From positions 1-36,247 of the forward strand of contig NZ_JALPNU010000032.1 of assembly GCF_030851345.1 (NCBI RefSeq): a stretch of DNA of 36,247 nucleotides, read 5' to 3'. Position 1 is the stretch's first letter; each line of letters starts with the position of its first letter. This document shows, piece by piece, positions 196 through 32,170 of the stretch. The notes under the pieces are model-generated. The model was given only the letters and a program-made list of their open reading frames with translations. It had not been told where the DNA came from and did no database searches. The stretch comes from Marinifilum sp. D714. GTDB lineage: Bacteria; Bacteroidota; Bacteroidia; Bacteroidales; Marinifilaceae. Both the position numbers and the translations under genes were made by a program.

Positions 196-2187
196 TTACA
201 ATTCAGCTTCGATCCATGACCAAGTTGAGATATCAACTTTAGAAGCATCTTTACCTGAATTCAATTCATACTTCTTAGTTTCTCCATCTAATAAAGTAGC
301 ATCTGCATCAGCTCCGTTAATCTGAACGTTAGCTAAAGCTCCACTATCTTTCATATCCAAATCAACAGCATAACCTTCCAGGTATAATCCTGTAATTGTT
401 GCACCAGAGGTACTTTTGAATTGAAGCGCAGTACCACCAACAGTTGAAATTGCAGTTACATTTTCGAATTGTGGGTTGTTGTTTACTTTATCACCTTCGA
501 ATGCAGTAGAAAATCCTTCAATAGTATGAGAAATGTAAGTGTTAGTTACTTTTCCGCTCCATCCTTCAGTCCAGTCTACTGAGTCATCTTCGTTGTTTTC
601 CAGGTACAGATTGCTTACTGAAACAGTTCCACCAAAGAACTCGATACCATCATCAGAACCGTTGATTACAGCTACATTTTCGATAGTAGTTGCAGAACCT
701 ACAGCGTATAATGAAACACCGTTGTACTGAGATTCTGAGTTAATTTGAGCACCTGTTCCTTTGATAACAAGGTGAGAAATAGAACCTGAATTATCATCAT
801 CAGTAGTACCACCATAAACAAAACCACCAACTTCAGCAACAGAGTTTGCACCAGCAGTTGTAGTAGCTTTACCGCAAATGGTTAATCCACCCCAGTCACC
901 TGGCTGACCTAGGTCAGAAGAAATTACAACTGGATTGTTAGCAGTTCCCTGGATATCAATAGTACCACCCATTAAAACAGCAATGTATACTTCAGTACCA
1001 CCTGCATCAGCGTGAATTTTGGTACCAGCAGGAATAGTTAATGAAGCACCGTCTTGTACAATATATGCACCAGTTAAACGGTATGATTTTGTAGCATCAA
1101 GTGTTACATCAGAATCAACATTACCCGATAGTTCTTCAACAACAGCAACGTCAGCATCAACCCATGTCCAAGCACTTGGATCAACGGTAGCAGGAGCGTT
1201 ATAACTATTAGCAGGATCAGCATTAACACCTTCAATTTGTACATTTGCTAAATCACCACCATCTTTCATATCGATACTTTTTGCGTAACCGCTTAATGAT
1301 AATCCAGTAATAGTAGCTCCAGAAGTACTCTTGAATTGAAGTGCTGTACCACCAACAGTAGAAACAGCAGTTAAGTTGATTAACTTAGGATTGTTGTTTA
1401 CTTTATCACCTTCAACAACAGTTGAGAAACCTGCGATAGTATGCTCTACATATGCATTTGTTACGGTTCCGTTCCATCCTTCAGTCCAATCAATTGCATC
1501 ATCTTCGTTGTTTTGTAAGAATAAGTTCTCAACAGAAACAGTTCCACCAAAGAACTCAACACCATCATCAGAACCATTGATTACTGCAACATTTTTAACT
1601 ACAGTGCTTGATCCTACAGCGTAGAAAGAAACACCATTATATTGTGACTCAGAGTTAATTTGAGCACCTGTACCTTTAATTACAAGGTTTTTGATATTAC
1701 CTGAATTATCATCATCATTAGTACCACCGTAAATAAAACCACCTACTTCGGCAACAGAATTTGGACCAGCAGTAGTAGTAGCTTTACCACAGATGGTTAA
1801 TCCACCCCAATCACCTGGCTGAGCAGCAGAAGATGTCATAACAACAGGAGTTGATTCAGTACCTTGAATATCAATCATACCGCCCATTAAAACTGCAATA
1901 TAAACATCAGTACCACCATTATCAGCGATAATTTCGGTACCAGCAGGAATTGTTAAAGTCATTCCATCAGGTACAATAAAAGAACCTGAAAGATCGTATT
2001 GAACAGATGCATCAAGAGTGTAATTCTCTGTTAACTGTCCATTCATAATACCATTTTGAAGATTTTCGATTACTTCTTCAACCACAGGTACTGGATCTGG
2101 TTCTGGATCATCATCATCAGAACAGCTTGTAAAGAAAGGCATTACTAAAATTGCCAAACCGAAAATTTTAATAGTTAATTTTTTCAT
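196..2187 (-). CDS. Surface lipoprotein with two tandem beta-helix-like domains
   Basis: The 663-residue product begins with a lipoprotein signal peptide; the lipobox ends FFTSC with Cys22 as the lipidation site, followed by an acidic SDDDD stretch of the kind linked to surface export in Bacteroidota. The rest is two copies of one ~305-residue domain, about residues 37-342 and 350-660. Landmarks such as LTIPAGT, QPGDWGGLTICGKATTTAG and GSDDG(V/I)EFFGG recur at a constant offset. The short hydrophobic turns with many Gly, Asn and Asp suggest a right-handed parallel beta-helix. It sits 45 bp downstream of the TonB-dependent receptor in the same operon, so it is probably the surface partner of that receptor. 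It is not a SusD homologue. The ligand is unknown; the shared PhoB-type box upstream of the operon suggests a phosphorus source. Confidence 0.85.
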   Translation of the reverse strand: MKKLTIKIFGLAILVMPFFTSCSDDDDPEPDPVPVVEEVIENLQNGIMNGQLTENYTLDASVQYDLSGSFIVPDGMTLTIPAGTEIIADNGGTDVYIAVLMGGMIDIQGTESTPVVMTSSAAQPGDWGGLTICGKATTTAGPNSVAEVGGFIYGGTNDDDNSGNIKNLVIKGTGAQINSESQYNGVSFYAVGSSTVVKNVAVINGSDDGVEFFGGTVSVENLFLQNNEDDAIDWTEGWNGTVTNAYVEHTIAGFSTVVEGDKVNNNPKLINLTAVSTVGGTALQFKSTSGATITGLSLSGYAKSIDMKDGGDLANVQIEGVNADPANSYNAPATVDPSAWTWVDADVAVVEELSGNVDSDVTLDATKSYRLTGAYIVQDGASLTIPAGTKIHADAGGTEVYIAVLMGGTIDIQGTANNPVVISSDLGQPGDWGGLTICGKATTTAGANSVAEVGGFVYGGTTDDDNSGSISHLVIKGTGAQINSESQYNGVSLYAVGSATTIENVAVINGSDDGIEFFGGTVSVSNLYLENNEDDSVDWTEGWSGKVTNTYISHTIEGFSTAFEGDKVNNNPQFENVTAISTVGGTALQFKSTSGATITGLYLEGYAVDLDMKDSGALANVQINGADADATLLDGETKKYELNSGKDASKVDISTWSWIEAEL

Positions 2188-2232: not shown

Positions 2233-5007
2233 CTATAAGTTGATTTTAACACCTAAACTAAGGCTGATGCCTTTTTTATAGGATTTTACAACCTCATTGG
2301 TAGAAGGATCTCCTGAAGTAGGATCTACTTTTTGAGTTTGCTCGATATCAGGATTTAGTAAGTTTTTACCTGATAGTTTCAAAGAGATACGATCTGATAA
2401 TTTTTTGCTAATTACCATATCAAGAGTTACAAATCCTTTCTCAATAATTTCATTGTTATAAAGTGTTGCAGAGTTTGCGAAACTTTCAGGAGCTCCAAGC
2501 GCATATATTTTATCCGATGAATAATTTCCTGATAAAGCTGCTTTGAATTCTTTTTCTTTTCGATTAGAGAAACTCAAAGTTCCATTCACGATAAAATCTG
2601 ATGCTCCTTGCAAGTCGGTTTCAGTTTTATTGTTGTATTGAAATTCTTCAAGTAGATCCTGGTTGAACCACATTTTTGTTGCATTCAGAATTAAATTTAA
2701 TTCCGGCATTTCTGTGGTTTCAGCTTTTATTAAAGCCATTCTGGTTTCAAACTCAAGGCCATATACATCAGCTTTATCTCCGGTATTTGCGAAATAGAAA
2801 TAGCCTGATGAACCTCTGGTTAATGCGAGGTTGATTGGATCATTAATCATTTTGTAGAAAGCAGAAACAGAAACAAGTTGTTTTGCAGTTGGGAACATTT
2901 CCCATTTTAAATCAAAATTGTAGTCATCAGAATTCATCAGGTTTGGATTACCTTTTGTAATTCGACCAGTAGGAGAGACATACTCAAATGGAGAAAGCTC
3001 TTTAAATTCTGGAAGTGTTATGGTTTTACTAAAAGCAAAACGAAGTGCACTCTTATCTGTTAATTGATATTTTAAATTAAGAGCAGGTAATATATTGTTG
3101 TAGTCATTTGAAATGCTCCCAATTCTTGTAGTTTGTGTTTCTAAATTAACGTAATTGGCAACGTCCCAATCTGCTTCAATCTTGTCCAGTTCATAACGAA
3201 ATCCAATATTACCTGATAACTTATTAATTTGAAATGTTGCATTTAAATATCCAGCGTAAACATCCAATGTAGCATTGAATAGGTCGGGCTTTCCAACTCT
3301 AAGTCTTAAATCAGTATTCAAGTTTCCATAAAGAGAAGTGTTTAGAAGAACATCATCTAATTCATTCACGTTTGGTACTTGAAATTGGGCTCCTTTTGCT
3401 CTAACACCAACGAACAAAGAGGTAAAATCTCTCTCTTTCATTCTAAAATCTCCACCAAAAGTAAATTTCAGTTTTCTATCATCGGTATCAATAAGTTTTA
3501 ATTCATCTTTTAAATAGCCGTTAATTTCAGTGTCTTTTATATACTGCTCTGATTTTCTTTGCTGATAATCACCAACGTGAGCAAACTGCACAGTATTGGC
3601 ATCAAGAATATTTACTTCGTTGCGAATACGATTAGGTTCTTCTGCTTTTATTGTGTTATAACCAACAGCCCAGTTTATTTTGTTATTTTCTCCAATTTTA
3701 TGAGATCCCAACAATTGGTTGATGAATAGAATTGTTTCTTTAAGATTTTGATCTCTTACAAAAGCACCTTCTTGTTGTGGATCCTGATCACGAACGAAAC
3801 CTTCGCCGTTTCCACCTTGTTCATAAAGTTCATCCTTTGTTTTATGAACATACAGAGTATTGAAATTAATACTGTGACTAGGATTTAGATCTAAAGTAAG
3901 GTTTAATAAACCAGTAGTATTTATTTTGGTTTCGTATTTCTCAGTGAAATTAAAAGAGTTATTTATATTATTCATACGAAAATTCTGGTATTCACCCTCC
4001 TGATGAGAAGATTCATTTTCGTGAGAAATAGTAGCAAATACAGAAAAGTCTTTTTCGAAAAGCTTGAATTTTTTACCAGCTAAAATTGAAAAGTCATACC
4101 CAATTGGAAATTCTCTTTTATCAGTGCTCCAACTCTGACTTGTTATTGCTTCTTCAGTATCATAAGGCTTATTGTAAAAGCCTAATGTCATGTCCTGATA
4201 ATTTTGAGTAGTTCTGAAATTATCAAAAATTCCGCTTTTTAAAACATTAGTATTGGCTTTTGTTGATAATCCAATACTAATTTTATCGCTAAAAGTTTTC
4301 GATACAATATCTACATTTCCAGAAGACTGATCAGCATAGTTTTCCGCTGAATAGGTTTTATTTATACTAACATTTTTAATTATGTCTGTGCCAAATAGAT
4401 TAAGGTCGATGTTTTTCTTTTCAACATCATCCGATGGAATTGGCAATCCATTCATGGTTGTTGAAAGGTATCTGTCACCCAACCCTCTTACATATACATC
4501 TCCGGATCCTTCGTTTTTGGTTACTCCTGAAATTTTCGAGGCAGCTGCAGCTGCATCCGATACGCCTTGAGTGGCCAATTCTTGTGCACCAATTGATTGT
4601 TTAATACCTACAGATTTTTTCTGATCGATAAGAAGCACAACTTCTGATTCTCTGTTTGCTTTGGCAACTACTTTAACATCTTCAAGAGCAACTGTTGATT
4701 CTCCCATTTCAAAATCAACAACCGCTGAATTGCCTTCAGCAACATTTACATTTTCTTTTGAAGAGGTTTCGTAAGAAATAAAGGAACATTTTATGGTTAC
4801 AGTTCCTATAGGAACATTAGTAATGGTATAATTACCATCAAAATCGGTTACAGTTCCTAATGTAGTTCCATCTACATAAACCGAAGCTCCAATTAATGCT
4901 TCACCGGTTTTTCCATCCTTCACATTTCCTGTAATGCTTCCCTTCTGCGCATATAAACCAAATGAAGAAAGAGTTAGTAATAAAACTAATAATACTTGTT
5001 TTGTCAT
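2233..5007 (-). CDS. TonB-dependent outer-membrane receptor with N-terminal carboxypeptidase-regulatory-like domain
   Basis: The 924-residue protein has a cleavable signal peptide (about 1-20, ending YAQ), then a carboxypeptidase-regulatory-like beta-sandwich (about 24-110; GSITGNVKDGKTGEALIGA, TDFDGNYTI). A plug domain follows (about 120-240; SKISGVTKNEGSGDVYVRGLG) and then a long beta-barrel ending in a hydrophobic strand (SLSLGVKINL). Length and order fit a complete TonB-dependent transporter. It is the first gene of a two-gene operon with the beta-helix lipoprotein, so it is not a SusC/SusD pair. It is divergent from the phoR-like gene. A Pho-box-like pair of half-sites at 5122-5143 lies about 115 bp upstream of the start codon, so induction under phosphate limitation is likely. 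The substrate cannot be read from sequence; phosphate esters, nucleic acid or polyphosphate are guesses. Confidence 0.93.
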   Translation of the reverse strand: MTKQVLLVLLLTLSSFGLYAQKGSITGNVKDGKTGEALIGASVYVDGTTLGTVTDFDGNYTITNVPIGTVTIKCSFISYETSSKENVNVAEGNSAVVDFEMGESTVALEDVKVVAKANRESEVVLLIDQKKSVGIKQSIGAQELATQGVSDAAAAASKISGVTKNEGSGDVYVRGLGDRYLSTTMNGLPIPSDDVEKKNIDLNLFGTDIIKNVSINKTYSAENYADQSSGNVDIVSKTFSDKISIGLSTKANTNVLKSGIFDNFRTTQNYQDMTLGFYNKPYDTEEAITSQSWSTDKREFPIGYDFSILAGKKFKLFEKDFSVFATISHENESSHQEGEYQNFRMNNINNSFNFTEKYETKINTTGLLNLTLDLNPSHSINFNTLYVHKTKDELYEQGGNGEGFVRDQDPQQEGAFVRDQNLKETILFINQLLGSHKIGENNKINWAVGYNTIKAEEPNRIRNEVNILDANTVQFAHVGDYQQRKSEQYIKDTEINGYLKDELKLIDTDDRKLKFTFGGDFRMKERDFTSLFVGVRAKGAQFQVPNVNELDDVLLNTSLYGNLNTDLRLRVGKPDLFNATLDVYAGYLNATFQINKLSGNIGFRYELDKIEADWDVANYVNLETQTTRIGSISNDYNNILPALNLKYQLTDKSALRFAFSKTITLPEFKELSPFEYVSPTGRITKGNPNLMNSDDYNFDLKWEMFPTAKQLVSVSAFYKMINDPINLALTRGSSGYFYFANTGDKADVYGLEFETRMALIKAETTEMPELNLILNATKMWFNQDLLEEFQYNNKTETDLQGASDFIVNGTLSFSNRKEKEFKAALSGNYSSDKIYALGAPESFANSATLYNNEIIEKGFVTLDMVISKKLSDRISLKLSGKNLLNPDIEQTQKVDPTSGDPSTNEVVKSYKKGISLSLGVKINL

Positions 5008-5101: not shown

Positions 5102-5189
5102 AAAAATTATAAAAATCGACTGCGATGTTAATTTCAAGTTAATGTCCTTGGGGTATGTTAAAGATATGTAAAAGCTGGGTTAAAACTCA
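5102..5189 (-). promoter_or_regulatory. PhoB-type operator and promoter region of the TonB receptor operon
   Basis: On the minus strand, ATTAAC-TTGAA-ATTAAC occupies 5143-5127: two identical half-sites exactly 11 bp apart. Seventeen bases further on is TAATTTTT (5109-5102), one mismatch from the Bacteroidota -7 element TAnnTTTG. Upstream on the minus strand are TTTAAC (5184-5179), TTTTAC (5173-5168) and TTTAAC (5162-5157), again with an 11-bp period, so an extended binding array is likely. The same spacing and core recur before phoR and the Pit gene. Confidence 0.6.
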
Positions 5190-5261
5190 CGAGCTAAGTA
5201 TAATTCCATTTTATTGTAACAGTCAGTACAATAGTTAGTAACAGACAATAATTACAATAAC

Positions 5262-5390
5262 ATGAAGGAAAAATTACACAATTATTACAACCTGCAATTC
5301 TTAAAAAAAACAGAAAAGAAGTTGATTTTTTACATGCAATTTTTAGCAAGTAAAATCTTTAAAAAAGTATTCTGTTTTTTACTTAAATAA
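5262..5390 (+). CDS. Possible small protein of 42 residues between the receptor and phoR
   Basis: An ATG-started frame of 42 codons (begins MKEKLHNYYN, ends KKVFCFLLK) fills part of the 545-bp divergent region. It is rich in Lys, Phe and Leu and could form an amphipathic helix. No clear ribosome binding site or promoter precedes it, and in such AT-rich DNA a frame this short can arise by chance. It also contains an 11-bp inverted repeat (5305-5315 with 5370-5380). Confidence 0.15.
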   Translation: MKEKLHNYYNLQFLKKTEKKLIFYMQFLASKIFKKVFCFLLK

Positions 5391-5427
5391 TATTCCTAAA
5401 TATTTAAAGCAATATTATTGAGGAAAT

Positions 5428-5514
5428 GTTAAGATTTAATTAAGATTCAAGCTTCTGAAATACAATAAGATTAACGAAAAGTTAACTTCTATTTCAGAAA
5501 ATATCCTACTTTTA
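5428..5514 (+). promoter_or_regulatory. Two PhoB-type boxes and promoter of the phoR-phoB operon
   Basis: ATTAAC-GAAAA-GTTAAC lies at 5470-5486: half-sites with an 11-bp period. Twenty bases after it is TACTTTTA (5507-5514), one mismatch from TAnnTTTG. The box therefore occupies the position of the -33 element, as Pho boxes replace the -35 element in Escherichia coli. A second, weaker pair, GTTAAG-ATTTA-ATTAAG (5428-5444), also with an 11-bp period, lies 42 bp upstream, close to four helical turns. This suggests autoregulation. Confidence 0.6.
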
Positions 5515-5552: not shown

Positions 5553-6650
5553 ATGTTATTGACAGAACAAAAAAACTGGAAACATTTATTTTCAGGTAAG
5601 ATAAATAGAGAAATGAAAATTATTTCATCAACAAAAGTTAGTGTTTTTGTTAGTTTACTGGCTGGAGGTATAGTAATGGTATTCTGTGCCATATGTTTGT
5701 TATTTCCAATTCAGCCAAGCTATATCATATTATTCGGACTACTTTCTACATGGATTATTTATAACTTGAGTAAAGTTTTAGTAAACCGGTTTTTATACTC
5801 CAAAGTTAGGATGCTTTATAAAACCATTCATGATACTCAGGTAATTGATAAAGAACTTGGTGATAAAGTTAAAAGTACCGATATTTTAGCTGAGGCAGAA
5901 AAAGAGGTTAGAGAATGGAGTGAGCAAAGAGGTTCTTTGGTAGCACAGCTAAAAAAACAAGAAAAATTTAGGAAGGAATTTATTGGGAATGTATCACATG
6001 AACTTAAAACTCCTATTTTTAATATACAAGGATACATATTAACACTCCTTGATGGTGGTTTGGAAGATAAATCTATAAACCGAAACTATCTCGAAAGAAC
6101 CGAAAAGAGCATAAATAGAATGATTACCATCGTTAAGGATTTGGAGGTCATTTCTAAATTGGAATCGGGAGAGCTAAAGTTAATGTATGAAAGATTCAAT
6201 ATTACCGATTTAATAAATGAGGTTTTAGAAATGCAAGAAATGAGAGCCCATAAGAATGGAATAAAGCTCAACTTTATTCAACGTGTTGATGCTCCCAAAT
6301 TTGTATATGCCGATAAAAAGGAAATCTTTCAAGTTTTAAATAATTTAATAGTAAATTCGATAAAATACGGTAAAGATAAAGGGACCACCACTATTGAAGT
6401 GATGAGTATGGACAATAAAGCACTCATTGAAGTAAGAGATAATGGTATCGGAATTGAATCGGATAACTTACCGCGTATTTTCGAGCGATTTTTTAGAGTG
6501 GATAAAAGTAGAGCACGAAATATGGGCGGTTCGGGCTTAGGCCTTGCAATTGTTAAGCATATTATTGATGCTCACAATCAAAGTATAAATGTAAGCAGTA
6601 CTTATGGCGAAGGTACGAGTTTTACTTTTTCACTTGATAAATCAAAATAA
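5553..6650 (+). CDS. phoR: Sensor histidine kinase, PhoR-like
   Basis: The 365-residue inner-membrane kinase has two adjacent membrane helices (about 29-51 and 57-74) joined by a loop of only about six residues. There is thus no periplasmic sensor domain and no PAS domain. The HisKA dimerisation helix carries the phosphoacceptor His149 in NVSHELKTP. The ATPase domain shows the N box (NNLIVNSIKYG, 263-273), G1 (DNGIGI, 296-301), F box (FERFFRVD, 310-317) and G2 (GGSGLGLAIV, 325-334). The response regulator starts 24 bp downstream. A second ATG at codon 21 (5613) would also give a complete protein, and neither start has a clear ribosome binding site. The lack of a sensor domain fits PhoR kinases that read phosphate status through a transporter/PhoU complex. 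The name rests on this and on the Pho-box-like sites. Confidence 0.8.
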   Translation: MLLTEQKNWKHLFSGKINREMKIISSTKVSVFVSLLAGGIVMVFCAICLLFPIQPSYIILFGLLSTWIIYNLSKVLVNRFLYSKVRMLYKTIHDTQVIDKELGDKVKSTDILAEAEKEVREWSEQRGSLVAQLKKQEKFRKEFIGNVSHELKTPIFNIQGYILTLLDGGLEDKSINRNYLERTEKSINRMITIVKDLEVISKLESGELKLMYERFNITDLINEVLEMQEMRAHKNGIKLNFIQRVDAPKFVYADKKEIFQVLNNLIVNSIKYGKDKGTTTIEVMSMDNKALIEVRDNGIGIESDNLPRIFERFFRVDKSRARNMGGSGLGLAIVKHIIDAHNQSINVSSTYGEGTSFTFSLDKSK

Positions 6651-6674: not shown

Positions 6675-7382
6675 ATGGAAAGTAGTAATTACAAAATTTT
6701 ATTGGTAGACGATGAGTCGGATATACTGGAATTCTTAAGTTACAATCTTAAAAAGGAAGGTTTCCAGGTGTCAACTGCCAGTGATGGTAAAGAGGCAATT
6801 GAAAAAGCTAAAAAATTTCATCCACATTTAATTATTTTAGATGTAATGATGCCGGAAATGGATGGAATCGAAACATGCGAAAAAATCAGAGCCTTGCCTG
6901 AATTTTCAGATGTACTGATTTCTTTCCTAACAGCAAGAGGAGAAGATTATTCTCAAATTGCAGGATTCGAAGCTGGAGCTGATGACTATATTAGTAAGCC
7001 AATAAAGCCAAAAGTATTTATTAGTCGCGTTAAAGCATTATTAAAAAGATCGGGGAGAGTTTCCGAAGAAGGAGGCAATGCGAATAATGGATTAATTACC
7101 ATAGGTAATATTTCAATTGACCGTGAGAGGTATTTAATTATCCAGGATGGAAAAGAATTCTCATTGCCACGAAAAGAATTTGAATTGTTGATTTTGTTGG
7201 TATCGCGTCCACAAAAAGTTTTCACTCGCGATGAGATTTATTCTTCAATTTGGGGAGAAAAAATTATTGTTGGAGATAGAACAATTGATGTTCATATCAG
7301 AAAACTTCGTGAGAAAATTGGTGATGATTACATCCAAACGGTAAAAGGTGTCGGTTATAAATTTGTTGATGCAGCAAATTAA
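6675..7382 (+). CDS. phoB: Response regulator, OmpR/PhoB family
   Basis: The 235-residue protein has a receiver domain (about 6-120) with acidic residues Asp12-Asp13, phosphoacceptor Asp56 in LIILDVMMPEMDG, Thr86 and Lys108. A winged-helix DNA-binding domain of OmpR type follows (about 135-235; LPRKEFELLILL, then DRTIDVHIRKLREKIG and VKGVGYKF). It is co-transcribed with the kinase. Winged-helix regulators of this class bind direct repeats with an 11-bp period, which is what is seen upstream of three transcription units here. The family assignment is certain. The phosphate role is inferred from those sites and from their position before a phosphate transporter. Confidence 0.85.
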   Translation: MESSNYKILLVDDESDILEFLSYNLKKEGFQVSTASDGKEAIEKAKKFHPHLIILDVMMPEMDGIETCEKIRALPEFSDVLISFLTARGEDYSQIAGFEAGADDYISKPIKPKVFISRVKALLKRSGRVSEEGGNANNGLITIGNISIDRERYLIIQDGKEFSLPRKEFELLILLVSRPQKVFTRDEIYSSIWGEKIIVGDRTIDVHIRKLREKIGDDYIQTVKGVGYKFVDAAN

Positions 7383-8420: not shown

Positions 8421-8792
8421 ATGAAAAAACTTGTTTTCCTTTTTATCGCATTAGTTGTTGTTGGACTACAAAGTCAGGCAATCAACGTAGTTACACCGAA
8501 TGGTGACAAAGAAATAGAAGCAACAGAATTGGCAACAATTGAAACAACTAGTCTATCAGGTGTAGTTTTGGATAACGAAACTGGTGAAGCATTGGTTGGA
8601 GTAGCTATCCGTTTCGAAGGATCAAAAGAAACAGTGTATACTGATTTTGATGGTAACTTTAAAATAGACAATGTAATTCCTGGCAAGTACAATGTTTTAT
8701 CTAGTTACATTTCGTACACTGATAATAAAATGAAAGAAGTAAATGTAAGCGGGAAGAACAATGTTATCCGCCTTGTACTAAAAAAGGACTAA
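8421..8792 (+). CDS. Exported free-standing carboxypeptidase-regulatory-like domain protein
   Basis: The 123-residue protein has a signal peptide (about 1-20, ending QSQA) and one carboxypeptidase-regulatory-like beta-sandwich (about 43-118; SLSGVVLDNETGEALVGVAI, TDFDGNFKI, GKYNVLSSYISY). This is the module usually found at the N-terminus of TonB-dependent receptors, here without plug or barrel. It ends with a normal stop codon, so it looks like a true small protein and not a truncated receptor. It is followed after 10 bp by the YwqK-like gene and is probably co-transcribed with it. No function is known to me. Periplasmic or outer-membrane association is expected. Confidence 0.8.
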   Translation: MKKLVFLFIALVVVGLQSQAINVVTPNGDKEIEATELATIETTSLSGVVLDNETGEALVGVAIRFEGSKETVYTDFDGNFKIDNVIPGKYNVLSSYISYTDNKMKEVNVSGKNNVIRLVLKKD

Positions 8793-8802
8793 TTAAGAGT
8801 AA

Positions 8803-9270
8803 ATGATAAAAAGACTTGGAGTAATTTTAGGCGTACTATTTTGCCTGATTGCGAATCACTCTTTTTCTCAAGCTATTGAAGAAGTAGAGGGATTATATTA
8901 CACTACAAAAGGAGATTTATACACCGGAACATATACAGAATTTTATGAGAGTGGTGTTAAAAGAATCGAAATGAATATTGAAGAAGGAAAGAGAAATGGT
9001 AAAATTACTCTCTACTTCGAAAATGAAAAAGTTCAGGAAGTTAGATCCTACGTAAAAGGTTTGATGGATGGAACCTGGATTACTTGGAATGATAAATCAG
9101 TTAAAATTGCCGAAGCAAATTACAAGAAGAATAAAAAGCACGGCAAGTGGTACATTTGGGACGACAATGGTGTAAAGCGCTATGAAATGGAGTATTACGA
9201 AGGAAAAAAAGTCGGAACATGGTCCATTTGGGATGCTGAAGGAAATTTAATTAAAGAACGGAAGTTTTAG
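8803..9270 (+). CDS. Exported YwqK/MORN-variant repeat protein
   Basis: The 155-residue product has a signal peptide (about 1-23, ending SFSQA). Consecutive repeats of about 20-23 residues follow, of the type YYEGKKVGTWSIWDAEGNLI; earlier copies are NIEEGKRNGKITLYFENEKV, YVKGLMDGTWITWNDKSV and NYKKNKKHGKWYIWDDNGV. These repeats form extended beta-hairpin stacks as in YwqK-family proteins. Databases often label that family as a toxin-antitoxin antitoxin; there is no toxin gene here and I would not use that name. It is second in an operon with the regulatory-like-domain protein. Its start overlaps the sequence TAAATGA, with an A/G-rich stretch just upstream. Confidence 0.8.
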   Translation: MIKRLGVILGVLFCLIANHSFSQAIEEVEGLYYTTKGDLYTGTYTEFYESGVKRIEMNIEEGKRNGKITLYFENEKVQEVRSYVKGLMDGTWITWNDKSVKIAEANYKKNKKHGKWYIWDDNGVKRYEMEYYEGKKVGTWSIWDAEGNLIKERKF

Positions 9271-9296
9271 TAAATTCAGATAATAGAAGTTCTCTT

Positions 9297-9333
9297 GAAA
9301 GTCGCTTAATTTTATTAGGCGGCTTTCTTTTTT
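9297..9333 (+). terminator. Rho-independent terminator after the YwqK-like gene
   Basis: GAAAGTCGC (9297-9305) pairs with GCGGCTTTC (9319-9327) with one G-T pair, and a run of six T follows at 9328-9333. It lies 26 bp after the stop codon. Confidence 0.8.
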
Positions 9334-28628: not shown

Positions 28629-29021
28629 ATGGAAAGTAAAAAAACAATTGCTTTAGTAGCGCATAACGAGAAGAAGAGCGTAATGCTTGCGTGGGTAAAA
28701 AGACACCTTGATGAATTGAAGAAGCACAAGCTAATAGGGACGACAAATACTTCTGAAATATTAAACTCAGTGCTGGATCTTGAGGTTGAAGCTTTTGGGC
28801 ATGGACCTAATGGAGGTGATATTTTATTGGCGGCTCAAATTCTTGAAGGAAAGGTTGATGAAGTAATATTTTTAATAGATGCCGAAACACCTCATGGTCA
28901 CGAACATGACATACAAACGTTAATTAGAACTTGTGTAATTAACAATGTGCCAATGGCTTTAAATGTTGCTACTGCAGATTTTTTAGTTAAGCTTAATAAA
29001 GGTGAAGAAACAAAAAGTTAA
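28629..29021 (+). CDS. mgsA: Methylglyoxal synthase
   Basis: The 130-residue cytoplasmic enzyme converts dihydroxyacetone phosphate to methylglyoxal and free phosphate. Residues matching the E. coli enzyme are His12 (VAH), the phosphate-binding Thr stretch GTTNTS (37-42), Asp64 in GPNGGD, His91 and Asp94 (PHGHEHD), and the C-terminal NVATADF motif. The length is normal. In E. coli the enzyme is strongly inhibited by inorganic phosphate and works as a bypass that frees phosphate from sugar phosphates. Here it lies 87 bp upstream of a Pit phosphate transporter, with a Pho-box-like pair between them. Confidence 0.93.
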   Translation: MESKKTIALVAHNEKKSVMLAWVKRHLDELKKHKLIGTTNTSEILNSVLDLEVEAFGHGPNGGDILLAAQILEGKVDEVIFLIDAETPHGHEHDIQTLIRTCVINNVPMALNVATADFLVKLNKGEETKS

Positions 29022-29084
29022 CACAGAGTTAACACAAACGTAATAAAAACGAAACATTTTAGTCTCCATGTGTTAGTATGTTTG
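29017..29084 (+). promoter_or_regulatory. PhoB-type box and promoter of the Pit gene
   Basis: GTTAACACAGA (29017-29027) is followed directly by GTTAACACAAA (29028-29038): two 11-bp direct repeats identical at nine positions. The first overlaps the mgsA stop region. TATGTTTG (29077-29084), a full TAnnTTTG match, lies 43 bp after the second core and 24 bp before the ATG. The distance to the -7 element is larger than in the other two boxes, so the box may act from upstream. Confidence 0.6.
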
Positions 29085-29108: not shown

Positions 29109-31412
29109 ATGGAGAACTTTTATTTGTTAATTGTGGTAGTGCTATTTGCACTGGCCATTAGCGATCTTATCGTGGGCGTGAGTAATGACGCCGTTAATTT
29201 CCTAAACTCTGCATTCGGTTCTAAGGCTGCCCCACGTTGGGCAATCATGATTATTGCCAGCCTTGGGATTTTGGTAGGAGCAACTTTTTCGAGTGGTATG
29301 ATGGAAGTAGCTCGTAAAGGGATTTTCCACCCAGACCAATTCTACTTTGCAGAAATCATGATCATTTTTATTGCGGTAATGCTAACAGATATTATTCTGT
29401 TGGATTTTTACAACACCGTAGGTCTGCCAACTTCAACTACAGTTTCGATTGTATTTGAGTTGCTTGGAGCTGCTGTTGCGGTTGCCGTAGTTAAAATTAT
29501 GAACTCTGCGGATCAATCATTGCTTGATTTAGGAAGTTATATCAACTCAGCTAAAGCACTGGCAATTATTACCGGTATTCTGTTGAGTGTTGTTATCGCC
29601 TTCTTATCCGGTGCATTGGTGCAATGGGTAACACGATTGGTTTTCACGTACAAGTACGAGAAAACATTCAAGTATTTTGGTGCCATTTTCGGAGGTATTG
29701 CAATTACTGCGATTACTTATTTTATCCTGATTAAAGGTGCTAAAGGATCCTCTTTCATTACCAAAGATACTTTGGCTTGGATTAAATCTAACACTTTAAC
29801 CATTATTGGTGTTTCTTTTGTTGGTTGGACTGTTTTATTACAAGCTTTAGTTTGGTTTGTTCGTTTAAACATTCTTAAGGTGATTGTATTGGTAGGTACA
29901 TTTGCATTGGCAATGGCTTTTGCTGGTAACGACCTTGTAAACTTTATTGGTGTGCCATTGGCTGGTTTCAAATCGTTCCAGGCATTTGCTGCTAATCCAG
30001 GTACTGATCCTTATGGAATGACAATGGGTATTTTGAGTCAGAAAGTACAAACTGAAACTTACCTGTTGATAATTGCTGGTATTATTATGACCGTAACACT
30101 ATGGTTGTCTAAAAAAGCAAGAACAGTTACCGAGACGGAGATTGGCTTGAGTAGCCAAAATGAGGGAGACGAAAAATTTGGATCATCGTTCTTTGCACGT
30201 TTATTAGTTCGTCGTTCATTATCAGCGAACAGCAACTTCAAGCGCATGATGCCAGCAACGGTTCAGCAAGGTATTGCGAATCGATTTAGCAAACCGGAAG
30301 AAGTAGCTATTCCTGGAATAGATCCTAAGGATAAGCCTGCTTTCGATATGATTCGTGCATCGGTTAATCTTACAGTTGCTAGTATCTTGATTTCGATTGG
30401 TACTTCTTTGAAATTGCCTTTGTCTACAACTTATGTGACATTTATGGTAGCAATGGGTACTTCATTATCAGATAGAGCTTGGGGTAGAGATTCTGCTGTA
30501 TACCGTATTACTGGTGTACTTACCGTTATTGGTGGATGGTTCTTTACTGCCTTCAGTGCCTTTACAGCTGCATTTATTTTCGCTAACCTGATTAACTGGT
30601 TAGGTGGTATTGCAATTCTTGGACTGTTAATTCTTGCAGTAGTCTTTGTGGTTCGTTCTCACGTTTTCCACAAGAAAAAATCACAAGCTAAAGAGCAAGA
30701 GGTTACAGAAGATGAAGATACCATTATCATTAAAGGTGGAATTTTTGAACAATTGACTTTCGCAGTTTCTGGTATCACAGTTAAGATTCCTAATCTATAT
30801 GGCAAAATCATTAACGGACTGGCTTTTGAAGAGCGTTCTAAATTGAAGGAATGCAATAAAAAAGCTGGCAAGTTAGATAAGGAAGCGAAACAGATGAAAG
30901 ATCAGGTTCCTGCCATGATGAAGAAGCTGAGTGAAGATAGTATCGCAACAGGTCCTTTCTACGTTCAGTTGATTGATTACTTGCGTGAGATTGCACACTC
31001 GATGAGCTTTATTGCTGGTCCAGCTTTCGATTACGTTGATAATAATCACAAGACATTGATTAAGGAGCAGGTAAATGAATTAAATATCATTCAAACCAAG
31101 CTTGATGATTTCTTCAGAACAATTAACCGTTTGTTGAAAGACAGCAATTATGAAGTTGCTGAAATTGAAAATGCTCTTGAGAAACAAAAAGATTTGTTGA
31201 AATCAATTCGCAAGTTCAGAAAAGAGCAAATCAAGAGAATTAAAGCTGAAAAAGTTGGTACTAGAAATTCAGTTCTTTATTTAGGTATCCTGAATGAAAC
31301 CAAGAATCTAACTTTACACGCTGGAAATTTATTGAAAGCTTCAAGAGACTTCTCAGGTTTTAATGGTGAAGAAGTTGATTCAATTATTGAAGAAGACTCT
31401 TTGGAAGATTAA
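29109..31412 (+). CDS. Pit-type inorganic phosphate transporter with C-terminal PhoU-like helical domain
   Basis: The 767-residue inner-membrane protein belongs to the PHO4/Pit family, which imports phosphate (as metal phosphate) with protons or sodium. Both inverted signature motifs are present: VSNDAVNF (about 24-31) and AGNDLVNF (272-279). After a cytoplasmic loop and a second set of helices (including SLKLPLSTTYVTFMVAMGTSLSDRAWGRDSAVYRI), the last ~190 residues form a charged helical domain (about 575-755) of the DUF47/PhoU-like kind. This C-terminal fusion is longer than E. coli PitA (499 residues) and may gate transport. It probably has its own Pho-box promoter and ends at a strong terminator. 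Confidence 0.9.
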   Translation: MENFYLLIVVVLFALAISDLIVGVSNDAVNFLNSAFGSKAAPRWAIMIIASLGILVGATFSSGMMEVARKGIFHPDQFYFAEIMIIFIAVMLTDIILLDFYNTVGLPTSTTVSIVFELLGAAVAVAVVKIMNSADQSLLDLGSYINSAKALAIITGILLSVVIAFLSGALVQWVTRLVFTYKYEKTFKYFGAIFGGIAITAITYFILIKGAKGSSFITKDTLAWIKSNTLTIIGVSFVGWTVLLQALVWFVRLNILKVIVLVGTFALAMAFAGNDLVNFIGVPLAGFKSFQAFAANPGTDPYGMTMGILSQKVQTETYLLIIAGIIMTVTLWLSKKARTVTETEIGLSSQNEGDEKFGSSFFARLLVRRSLSANSNFKRMMPATVQQGIANRFSKPEEVAIPGIDPKDKPAFDMIRASVNLTVASILISIGTSLKLPLSTTYVTFMVAMGTSLSDRAWGRDSAVYRITGVLTVIGGWFFTAFSAFTAAFIFANLINWLGGIAILGLLILAVVFVVRSHVFHKKKSQAKEQEVTEDEDTIIIKGGIFEQLTFAVSGITVKIPNLYGKIINGLAFEERSKLKECNKKAGKLDKEAKQMKDQVPAMMKKLSEDSIATGPFYVQLIDYLREIAHSMSFIAGPAFDYVDNNHKTLIKEQVNELNIIQTKLDDFFRTINRLLKDSNYEVAEIENALEKQKDLLKSIRKFRKEQIKRIKAEKVGTRNSVLYLGILNETKNLTLHAGNLLKASRDFSGFNGEEVDSIIEEDSLED

Positions 31413-31483: not shown

Positions 31484-32170
31484 TTATTTGAGTTCAAGAA
31501 TCTCGAAAAGTTTTTTCATTCCTACACTCGCTACTTCTGTTATAAATGTAATGTTGCGATTGGAGTGAACGGTGGGTTGATTCGGATCGATAATAAAAAT
31601 AGGAGTATTAGCAGGAGCATAATCAATTAAGCCAGCCGCAGGATAAACATTTAAAGAAGTACCTATTATTAATAAGATATCAGCTTGAGATACTATTTCA
31701 GCTGCTTCAGATATGGCAGGAACACTTTCGCCAAACCATACAATGTGCGGTCGAAGTGGTGATCCTTTTTCACATTTATCTTCTAAACCTAGTTCCCATT
31801 TATCAAGTTCATATACCAAACTTGAATCAACCGTACTACGTGCTTTTTTCAATTCGCCATGCAGATGAAGGATTTTTGAACTGCCAGCTCTTTCATGCAA
31901 ATCATCTACATTTTGGGTTACAATGTGAACATTGAAATGCTCTTCCAGCTTTTTTATAAGGTGATGTCCATGGTTGGGTTCACATTCAAACAACTGCTTT
32001 CTTCTTTCATTGTAAAACTGATGAACCAAATTGGGATTGTTATGCCATGCAGTAGGACTGGCAACTTCCATAACATCGTATTCTTTCCACAACCCTCCCA
32101 TATCGCGAAAAGTTCTGATACCACTTTCGGCACTCATACCTGCACCGCTTAATACAACTAGTTTTTTCAT
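31484..32170 (-). CDS. cobB: NAD-dependent protein deacylase, sirtuin (SIRT5/CobB-like)
   Basis: The 228-residue enzyme removes acyl groups from lysine using NAD. Visible motifs are the NAD-binding LSGAGMSAESGIRTFRD (7-23), TQNVDDLHERAG (85-96), catalytic His104 in LHLHG, and GTSLNVYPAAGL. Tyr53 and Arg56 (FYNER) match the Tyr/Arg pair that selects succinyl, malonyl and glutaryl lysine in SIRT5-type enzymes. The region that usually holds four zinc-binding cysteines (about 105-140) has only Cys133, so the zinc ribbon is missing. It follows the 32181 gene after 10 bp on the minus strand. Confidence 0.88.
   Translation of the reverse strand: MKKLVVLSGAGMSAESGIRTFRDMGGLWKEYDVMEVASPTAWHNNPNLVHQFYNERRKQLFECEPNHGHHLIKKLEEHFNVHIVTQNVDDLHERAGSSKILHLHGELKKARSTVDSSLVYELDKWELGLEDKCEKGSPLRPHIVWFGESVPAISEAAEIVSQADILLIIGTSLNVYPAAGLIDYAPANTPIFIIDPNQPTVHSNRNITFITEVASVGMKKLFEILELK

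Follow-up and report, generated by a model that had tools for sequence, protein, structure and literature searches.

The window analysed here, a stretch of 36,247 nucleotides that forms contig C31 of the 4.77-Mb genome of Marinifilum sp. D714, raises the question whether short direct repeats in front of three of its transcription units are operators of a phosphate-starvation regulon and, if so, which regulator binds them. The first-pass annotation had proposed a PhoB regulon, defined by the pattern RTTAAC-N5-RTTAAC before a TonB receptor operon, a divergent gene pair for a histidine kinase and its response regulator, and a gene for a Pit transporter, with the regulator of this pair acting as PhoB. 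The repeats indeed behave as expected for a Pho box of this lineage, whereas the assignment of the window regulator as PhoB was not upheld.

Repeats in the window

The features on which the analysis was based are as follows, the kinds of gene agreeing with those supposed in the first-pass annotation:

196..2187, minus strand: lipoprotein, second gene of the TonB operon, a tandem parallel beta-helix according to structure prediction
2233..5007, minus strand: TonB-dependent receptor (PF13715, PF07715, PF14905 and two more Pfam families)
5102..5109, minus strand: -7-like element TAATTTTT, putative TonB core promoter, a conserved block in the alignment of 16 loci
5127..5143, minus strand: box facing the TonB receptor, ATTAAC-TTGAA-ATTAAC (exact match)
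5157..5184, minus strand: second, three-unit TonB box, TTTAAC-CCAGC-TTTTAC-ATATC-TTTAAC (alignment of 16 loci)
5273..5289, minus strand: weak pair toward the TonB gene, TGTAAT-AATTG-TGTAAT (alignment of 16 loci)
5428..5444, plus strand: second 11-bp repeat, GTTAAG-ATTTA-ATTAAG (two-mismatch match, 42 bp upstream of the kinase box)
5470..5486, plus strand: box facing the histidine kinase gene, ATTAAC-GAAAA-GTTAAC (exact match)
5507..5514, plus strand: -7-like element TACTTTTA of the putative kinase promoter, 20 bp from the box
5553..6650, plus strand: PhoR-like histidine kinase, below the PhoR equivalog cut-offs
6675..7382, plus strand: OmpR/PhoB-type response regulator, scoring under the equivalog cut-off for PhoB
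29017..29044, plus strand: three-unit Pit box, GTTAAC-ACAGA-GTTAAC-ACAAA-CGTAAT (exact pair plus third unit)
29077..29084, plus strand: putative -7-like element TATGTTTG before the Pit gene, 32 bp from the box
29109..31412, plus strand: Pit/PHO4 phosphate transporter (PF01384, E 1.1e-22)

The exact pattern was found at 5127-5143 (minus), 5470-5486 (plus) and 29017-29033, with no other exact match in the window, as had been noted before, and 100 dinucleotide shuffles of the window contained 0.02 matches on average and one at most. Allowing up to two mismatches, we obtained 32 matches vs. 21.6 expected, a slight excess that was reached by five of the 100 shuffles. The exact motif is not over-abundant in the whole genome (6 rows vs. 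18 for the reversed control pattern). Five distinct exact sites were recorded there, three in the window and one each on contigs C50 and C39, and four of them precede phosphate-linked genes, the link being given by family for Pit and inferred for the TonB receptor, the kinase and the porin. Thus, the signal lies in the location of the sites and not in their number. The unraised genome total and the marginal two-mismatch excess would favour chance repeats in AT-rich intergenic DNA, but the shuffles, the period controls and the persistence of the boxes in different genera and families described below argue against such an origin, which we rejected from the position and conservation tests as extremely improbable. 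In the stretches of the own genome that were examined, pairs stand before 9 of 93 genes (six Pho candidates, a VOC gene and two Pit neighbours), a proportion that provides no fair background, the stretches having mostly been picked around matches. The VOC/glyoxalase-family gene (3707-4294 of stretch L007), which has no known phosphate role, is preceded by the exact site at C39:81571 within a three-unit run.

The region between the TonB receptor and the kinase is richer in half-sites than initially described, containing the three-unit run at 5157-5184 (minus), which sits 13 bp upstream of the first TonB box and had been overlooked, and the repeat at 5428-5444 (plus), both aligned in relatives. 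Of 22 kinase loci, 16 retain the divergent layout, and the remaining six include one that is truncated. All 16 divergent loci, own included, have TAAC units at 11 bp on the TonB side, vs. 0-3 of 16 at other periods, and these units are located 134-137 bp before the TonB start throughout. TTnAC triples at 11 bp occur in 11 of the 16 loci and at periods 7-10 and 12-16 in none, and the weak pair recurs in six of them at a constant position (-280 to -283). On the kinase side, the strict pair is present in 9 of 21 loci and the variant ATTAAT-N5-CTTAAC in more. In 11 aligned kinase rows from these 21 loci, which were selected by motif and show variation around the box rather than a retention rate, the core TACTTTTATTTAAATATT of the kinase promoter is unchanged and the repeat at 5428-5444 forms a conserved block whose second unit varies between TTAAG, TTAAA and TTAAT.

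The -7 consensus of Bacteroidota promoters is TAnnTTTG. We confirmed distances from the box to a -7-like element of 17 bp for the TonB gene and 20 bp for the kinase gene, as claimed, and found 32 bp for Pit. Each box had also been said to read toward its gene; this holds for the TonB (minus) and kinase (plus) boxes, whereas the Pit pair GTTAAC-N5-GTTAAC matches both strands, and therefore its two half-sites cannot show a direction. The third Pit unit (ACAAA-CGTAAT) reads toward the gene. The Pit protein shares 92-98% identity with its counterparts in seven Marinifilum genomes. The box before its gene is present across Marinifilum, Labilibaculum and Ancylomarina loci, even where the upstream sequence differs.

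The second gene of the TonB operon codes for a lipoprotein without a Pfam match, whose AlphaFold2 model (mean pLDDT 82.7, pTM 0.55) gave beta-helix enzymes as best Foldseek matches, with a low overall TM near 0.2. Homologues were obtained from all ten relatives fetched, five of them partial and one consisting of two overlapping matches to a shorter gene, and the gene stays beside the TonB gene in the relatives read. A possible link of such a system to phosphate comes from Flavobacterium johnsoniae, where the part of the report available (PMC8115612) describes a 'PhoBR operon' with a TonB transporter, which has three Pfam families of the window receptor, and a neighbouring IPR011050 lipoprotein. 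In the low-phosphate table of the same partial source, this transporter and lipoprotein have high values (8.02 and 9.91), PhoB is listed with 3.06, and PhoR (0.76, P 0.056) and OprP (-1.3) are not significantly induced.

Phosphate genes elsewhere in the genome

The pst operon, identified as pstSCAB-phoU-phoB-phoR from its Pfam families, is located on contig C105 and preceded by the four-unit run AGTAAC-GATTT-GTTAAC-ATTGC-TGTAAT-ATTCC-TGTAAC upstream of pstS. A second four-unit run lies about 300 bp before an MFS gene named glpT by eye, whose operon comprises MFS, GDPD, Porin_O_P and glycerophosphate-oxidase families. The consensus RTTAAC therefore proved too narrow, because the best boxes of the genome are built of three or four units, TTAAC being combined with GTAAC/GTAAT, and judged from these sites, the half-site is better described as nKTAAY. 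The pattern KTAAC-N6-KTAAC-N6-KTAAY yielded four rows in the own genome, every one of them at glpT, Pit or pstS, and a looser KTAAY three-unit pattern yielded ten, some without an evident phosphate gene. The weak three-unit matches C17:211880, C28:243334 and C94:126144 were discarded, as no phosphate gene was recognised there by eye.

The exact site on C50 precedes a porin cluster, consisting of a gene for a 343-aa barrel protein and, after it, two Porin_O_P genes, and reads on the strand opposite to the porin gene. Homologues of the 343-aa porin (38-43% identical) end just before pstS on the same strand in 12 family genomes. Two further observations concern the neighbourhood of phosphate genes. 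SIR2-family genes (PF02146) adjoin them twice, at 31484-32170 convergent with Pit and at 8591-9328 of stretch L012 divergent from pstS. A gene for a Na/Pi cotransporter with a PhoU domain (position 6061 of stretch L013) has a weak pair TTTAAC-ATTTG-CTTTAC at 5975-5991 with three mismatches, 70 bp before the gene and similar in type to the TTnAC units of the TonB promoter; we dropped it as a candidate, and three-mismatch matches in this stretch are no commoner than in shuffles (45 vs. 46 expected).

Profile models were built from collected sites and scanned against the own genome. The sequence-only model R1 was derived from 25 pst and Pit sites, including the own pst site and the Pit boxes of close relatives. 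It ranked the glpT site, which was not part of the training set, first (E 0.0024) and the pst site, which was, second (0.0062), followed by two sites inside genes (ranks 3 and 4), the porin site in fifth (0.27) and the Pit site in tenth place (3.8). The two-unit kinase and TonB boxes were absent among the matches listed (150 of 4199 candidates scored), and glpT is the only untrained success of this model. Model R2, derived from other families only, gave the own pst site 8.1 bits; its 23 genome rows contained no known pst, Pit or glpT site (150 of 4991 candidates scored), and two of them (5265-5289 and 5421-5443) fell within the TonB-kinase region of the window. We rejected R2 as a model, since it holds too little information and missed the known sites of the own genome.

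Conservation in the family, order and phylum

The upstream regions of pstS were compared in 29 family loci, leaving out L036, where the match is cut by a contig end. A strict three- or four-unit run was found in 16 of them and only a pair in 5, while the remaining 8 had no strict pair within 400 bp, by a pattern that barred units starting with C. Scanning the upstream regions on the forward strand for pairs at 11 bp gave 21 positive loci out of 29 for pst, 29 out of 36 for Pit, 9 out of 21 for the kinase and 14 out of 30 for the porin, vs. a mean of 0.6-1.1 and a maximum of 5 loci in shuffled upstream regions. Other forward periods were met in 0-6 loci, the exceptions being a period of 22 bp, in 22 pst and 12 Pit regions, and one of 21 bp, in 12 porin regions. 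On the reverse strand, 11-bp pairs were absent from the pst regions and present in 23 out of 36 regions for Pit, 10 out of 21 for the kinase and 6 out of 30 for the porin, and such pairs are expected because TTAA half-sites are near-palindromic. The loci of these period scans are often close kin, so their counts are not independent.

The three-unit pattern gave 67 rows in 56 family genomes, corresponding to 52 distinct sites, vs. 33 rows for the reversed control, 12 of which come from one genome. Phosphate genes account for 34 of the 52 sites (26 pstS, 7 Pit and 1 glpT) and 18 lie elsewhere. A site was assigned to pstS if it lay within 700 bp before the gene on its strand, one of the 26 (G023) being a weak PstS match; the seven Pit assignments were made by tblastn (three), from the own window (one) and via identical box sequence (three). 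Ten of the 18 other sites were read by their ORFs, and no phosphate gene was recognised by eye. The conservation that had been proposed as a check was borne out, the boxes being kept within the family at Pit, pst and TonB genes and those at pst also recurring in numerous other families of the order.

At the level of the order, we searched 295 genomes for PstC, obtained matches in 158 and read the best 30 loci; after dropping L245 and L246, where contig ends were too near, 28 usable pst loci from 21 families remained, own genome included. At least two units at 11 bp were present in 25 of these 28 loci and three in 14, whereas no other period gave a triple in more than one locus per set, and the reverse strand gave none at all. 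Pairs at other periods were seen in 0-5 loci per set, besides the double step of 22 bp in 9 loci of the first set, and some few among the 25 may accordingly have arisen by chance. The units in the 21 boxes from other genomes of the order are mostly of the TGTAAC or CTTAAC types. In the second set of 18 loci, 14 of 15 boxes have their start 49-207 bp ahead of the ORF that comes before pstS, and in those 14 loci this ORF is a homologue of the own 343-aa porin (36-43% identical by tblastn).

Across the phylum, PstS was detected at E <= 1e-40 in 21 of 247 genomes, own included. Forward 11-bp pairs were found in 6 of 23 other PstS loci, reverse pairs in none, and pairs at other periods in 0-4. TTAAC triples at 11 bp gave 57 rows in 40 of the 247 genomes vs. 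16 control rows. In 27 of 30 triple loci, an ORF of at least 190 aa begins 58-134 bp downstream, and the triple (loci L213-L242) looks like a general promoter-proximal operator. Among the 30 loci, ten contain a homologue of the TonB receptor from the window and three correspond to porin-pst or pstS loci. Two triples (L227 and L228) lie 73-74 bp upstream of homologues of the window regulator (58-59% identical). Eight further triples (L217, L218 and L220-L225) are flanked by an outer-membrane gene on one side and, on the other, by a different histidine kinase that shares only 27-31% identity with the kinase of the window; this indicates that other OmpR-type regulators may use similar boxes. It is conceivable, although rather improbable, that the box as a whole belongs to such a regulator, be it one for redox or envelope control or an ArcA-like one, and that the phosphate genes are incidental. 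This reading draws on the triples of other families next to non-PhoR kinases and on a motif from Riemerella anatipestifer that is reported as ArcA-like in the text available (PMC9603813). It is opposed by the family survey, where the rows outside pst, Pit and glpT (20) do not exceed those of the reversed control (33).

The phosphate-starvation reading is favoured by the form and position of the boxes, which are direct repeats of two or more units with an 11-bp period in front of genes for phosphate uptake (pst, Pit) and organophosphate uptake. From these positions, the period and the conservation, the box is very probably the Pho box of this lineage and a putative operator of its phosphate-starvation regulator.

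Known Pho boxes and the binding regulator

Among established systems, the PhoP box of Bacillus subtilis, which serves a Gram-positive regulator, consists of TTAACA-like repeats about 11 bp apart. The closest published match found is the cyanobacterial SphR box, described in the accessible part of the paper as an array of three or more 8-bp CTTAACCT repeats in tandem, separated by spacers of 3 bp and hence with an 11-bp period (PMC1906773). Boxes listed in that part, such as GTTAATCTtcaGTTAACCT, look much like those of Marinifilum (PMC1906773). The TTAAC core and the period of the SphR unit are matched in Marinifilum, while the first base and the trailing CT vary: the CT after TTAAC is dispensable, GTAAC/GTAAT units are mixed in, the number of units is two to four, and the organisms belong to different phyla. 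The PhoB box of E. coli shares the direct repeats of 11-nt units, with CTGTCAT as unit in the text available (PMC4415409), but such half-sites were not found in Marinifilum, whose half-sites are TTAAC/GTAAC and not TGTCA.

A Pho-box consensus for Bacteroidota was not recognised in a literature search from which subscription journals were mostly out of reach. In Bacteroides fragilis, EMSA showed binding of PhoB to a 512-bp fragment of the pst promoter, and low-phosphate pstC expression requires PhoB, according to the portion of the report at hand, and the terms consensus and motif have counts of 0 in its main text (PMC3547664). Putative Pho boxes were computed for plcP clusters of marine bacteria, the isolates including the flavobacterium Dokdonia, as far as the available text goes (PMC4796936). 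The nearest printed Bacteroidota motif found is TTTAACA, obtained by DAP-seq for a regulator called PhoP in R. anatipestifer (PMC9603813, available in part). This system resembles ours in phylum, TTTAAC core, autoregulation and binding to a TonB receptor promoter in EMSA, and differs by its 583 peaks, the ArcA-like motif and a connection to virulence and aerotolerance, as given in that text, which mentions neither an 11-bp repeat nor a phosphate box.

With respect to the binding protein, it is doubtful that the regulator encoded at 6675-7382 is the PhoB, as it stays below the cut-off and a canonical phoB-phoR pair is present in the pst operon on another contig. The pst-linked PhoB and PhoR pass the NCBIfam models NF053854 and NF053855 (306.4 over 270 and 653 over 500 bits), whereas the window pair fails both (213.1 under 270 and 152.8 under 500 bits), and the two regulators are 40% identical. 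Moreover, of 26 genomes in which the pst operon has a box, 9 lack an orthologue of the window kinase among the matches listed, and 8 of these 9 encode a PhoR-like kinase downstream of pstS, at a distance of about 6-7 kb. From the cut-off results and these nine genomes we infer that the boxes are bound mainly by the pst-linked PhoB and that the window pair is one of its targets, perhaps forming a second tier.

The boxes might conversely be bound chiefly by the window regulator as the working PhoB, controlling itself, the TonB operon and Pit. In line with this, its own operon promoter contains a box, as do the promoters of its homologues in L227 and L228 with their TTAAC triples, and the R. anatipestifer regulator with the TTTAACA motif also binds its own promoter in the text available (PMC9603813). 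In addition, the DNA-binding domain of the window regulator, compared with 70 PDB OmpR-type sequences, gave a match to the corresponding domain of E. coli PhoB (1gxp, E 4.9e-16), although not as best match. Given that this regulator fails the cut-off that the pst-linked one passes, and that the pst box persists in the nine genomes without a window kinase orthologue among the matches listed, we regard such a role as unlikely. By comparison, we are largely confident that the repeats are predicted Pho boxes of the phosphate-starvation response that are bound by the pst-linked PhoB.

As a working model for this preferred reading, the box would consist of two to four half-sites of about nKTAAY, with TTAAC as the strongest, at 11-bp steps that may let OmpR-family regulators line up head to tail along the same side of the helix. 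Under phosphate limitation, the pst-linked PhoR would phosphorylate the pst-linked PhoB (both encoded on C105), which would then bind the boxes and activate pstSCAB-phoU-phoBR, Pit, the glpT-GDPD-porin operon and the porin cluster. PhoB would presumably also activate the operon of the TonB receptor and the beta-helix lipoprotein and the second kinase-regulator pair of the window, making this pair a Pho target and a possible second-tier regulator.

A more far-reaching version can be put forward only tentatively. It assumes a phylum-wide TTAAC Pho box that is essentially the cyanobacterial one and a control in two tiers, in which the pst-linked PhoB would run the pst, Pit, glpT and porin genes together with the second PhoB-like pair, and this pair, sharing the box, would control the TonB/beta-helix lipoprotein system for organic phosphate. 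If this were true, the TTAAC box would be either ancestral or reached twice. For the organism itself, the predicted boxes would link a so far orphan TonB/beta-helix lipoprotein system to phosphate. The Bacteroidales are an important group in the gut and in the sea, and a definition of their Pho box would allow phosphate regulons to be read from sequence.
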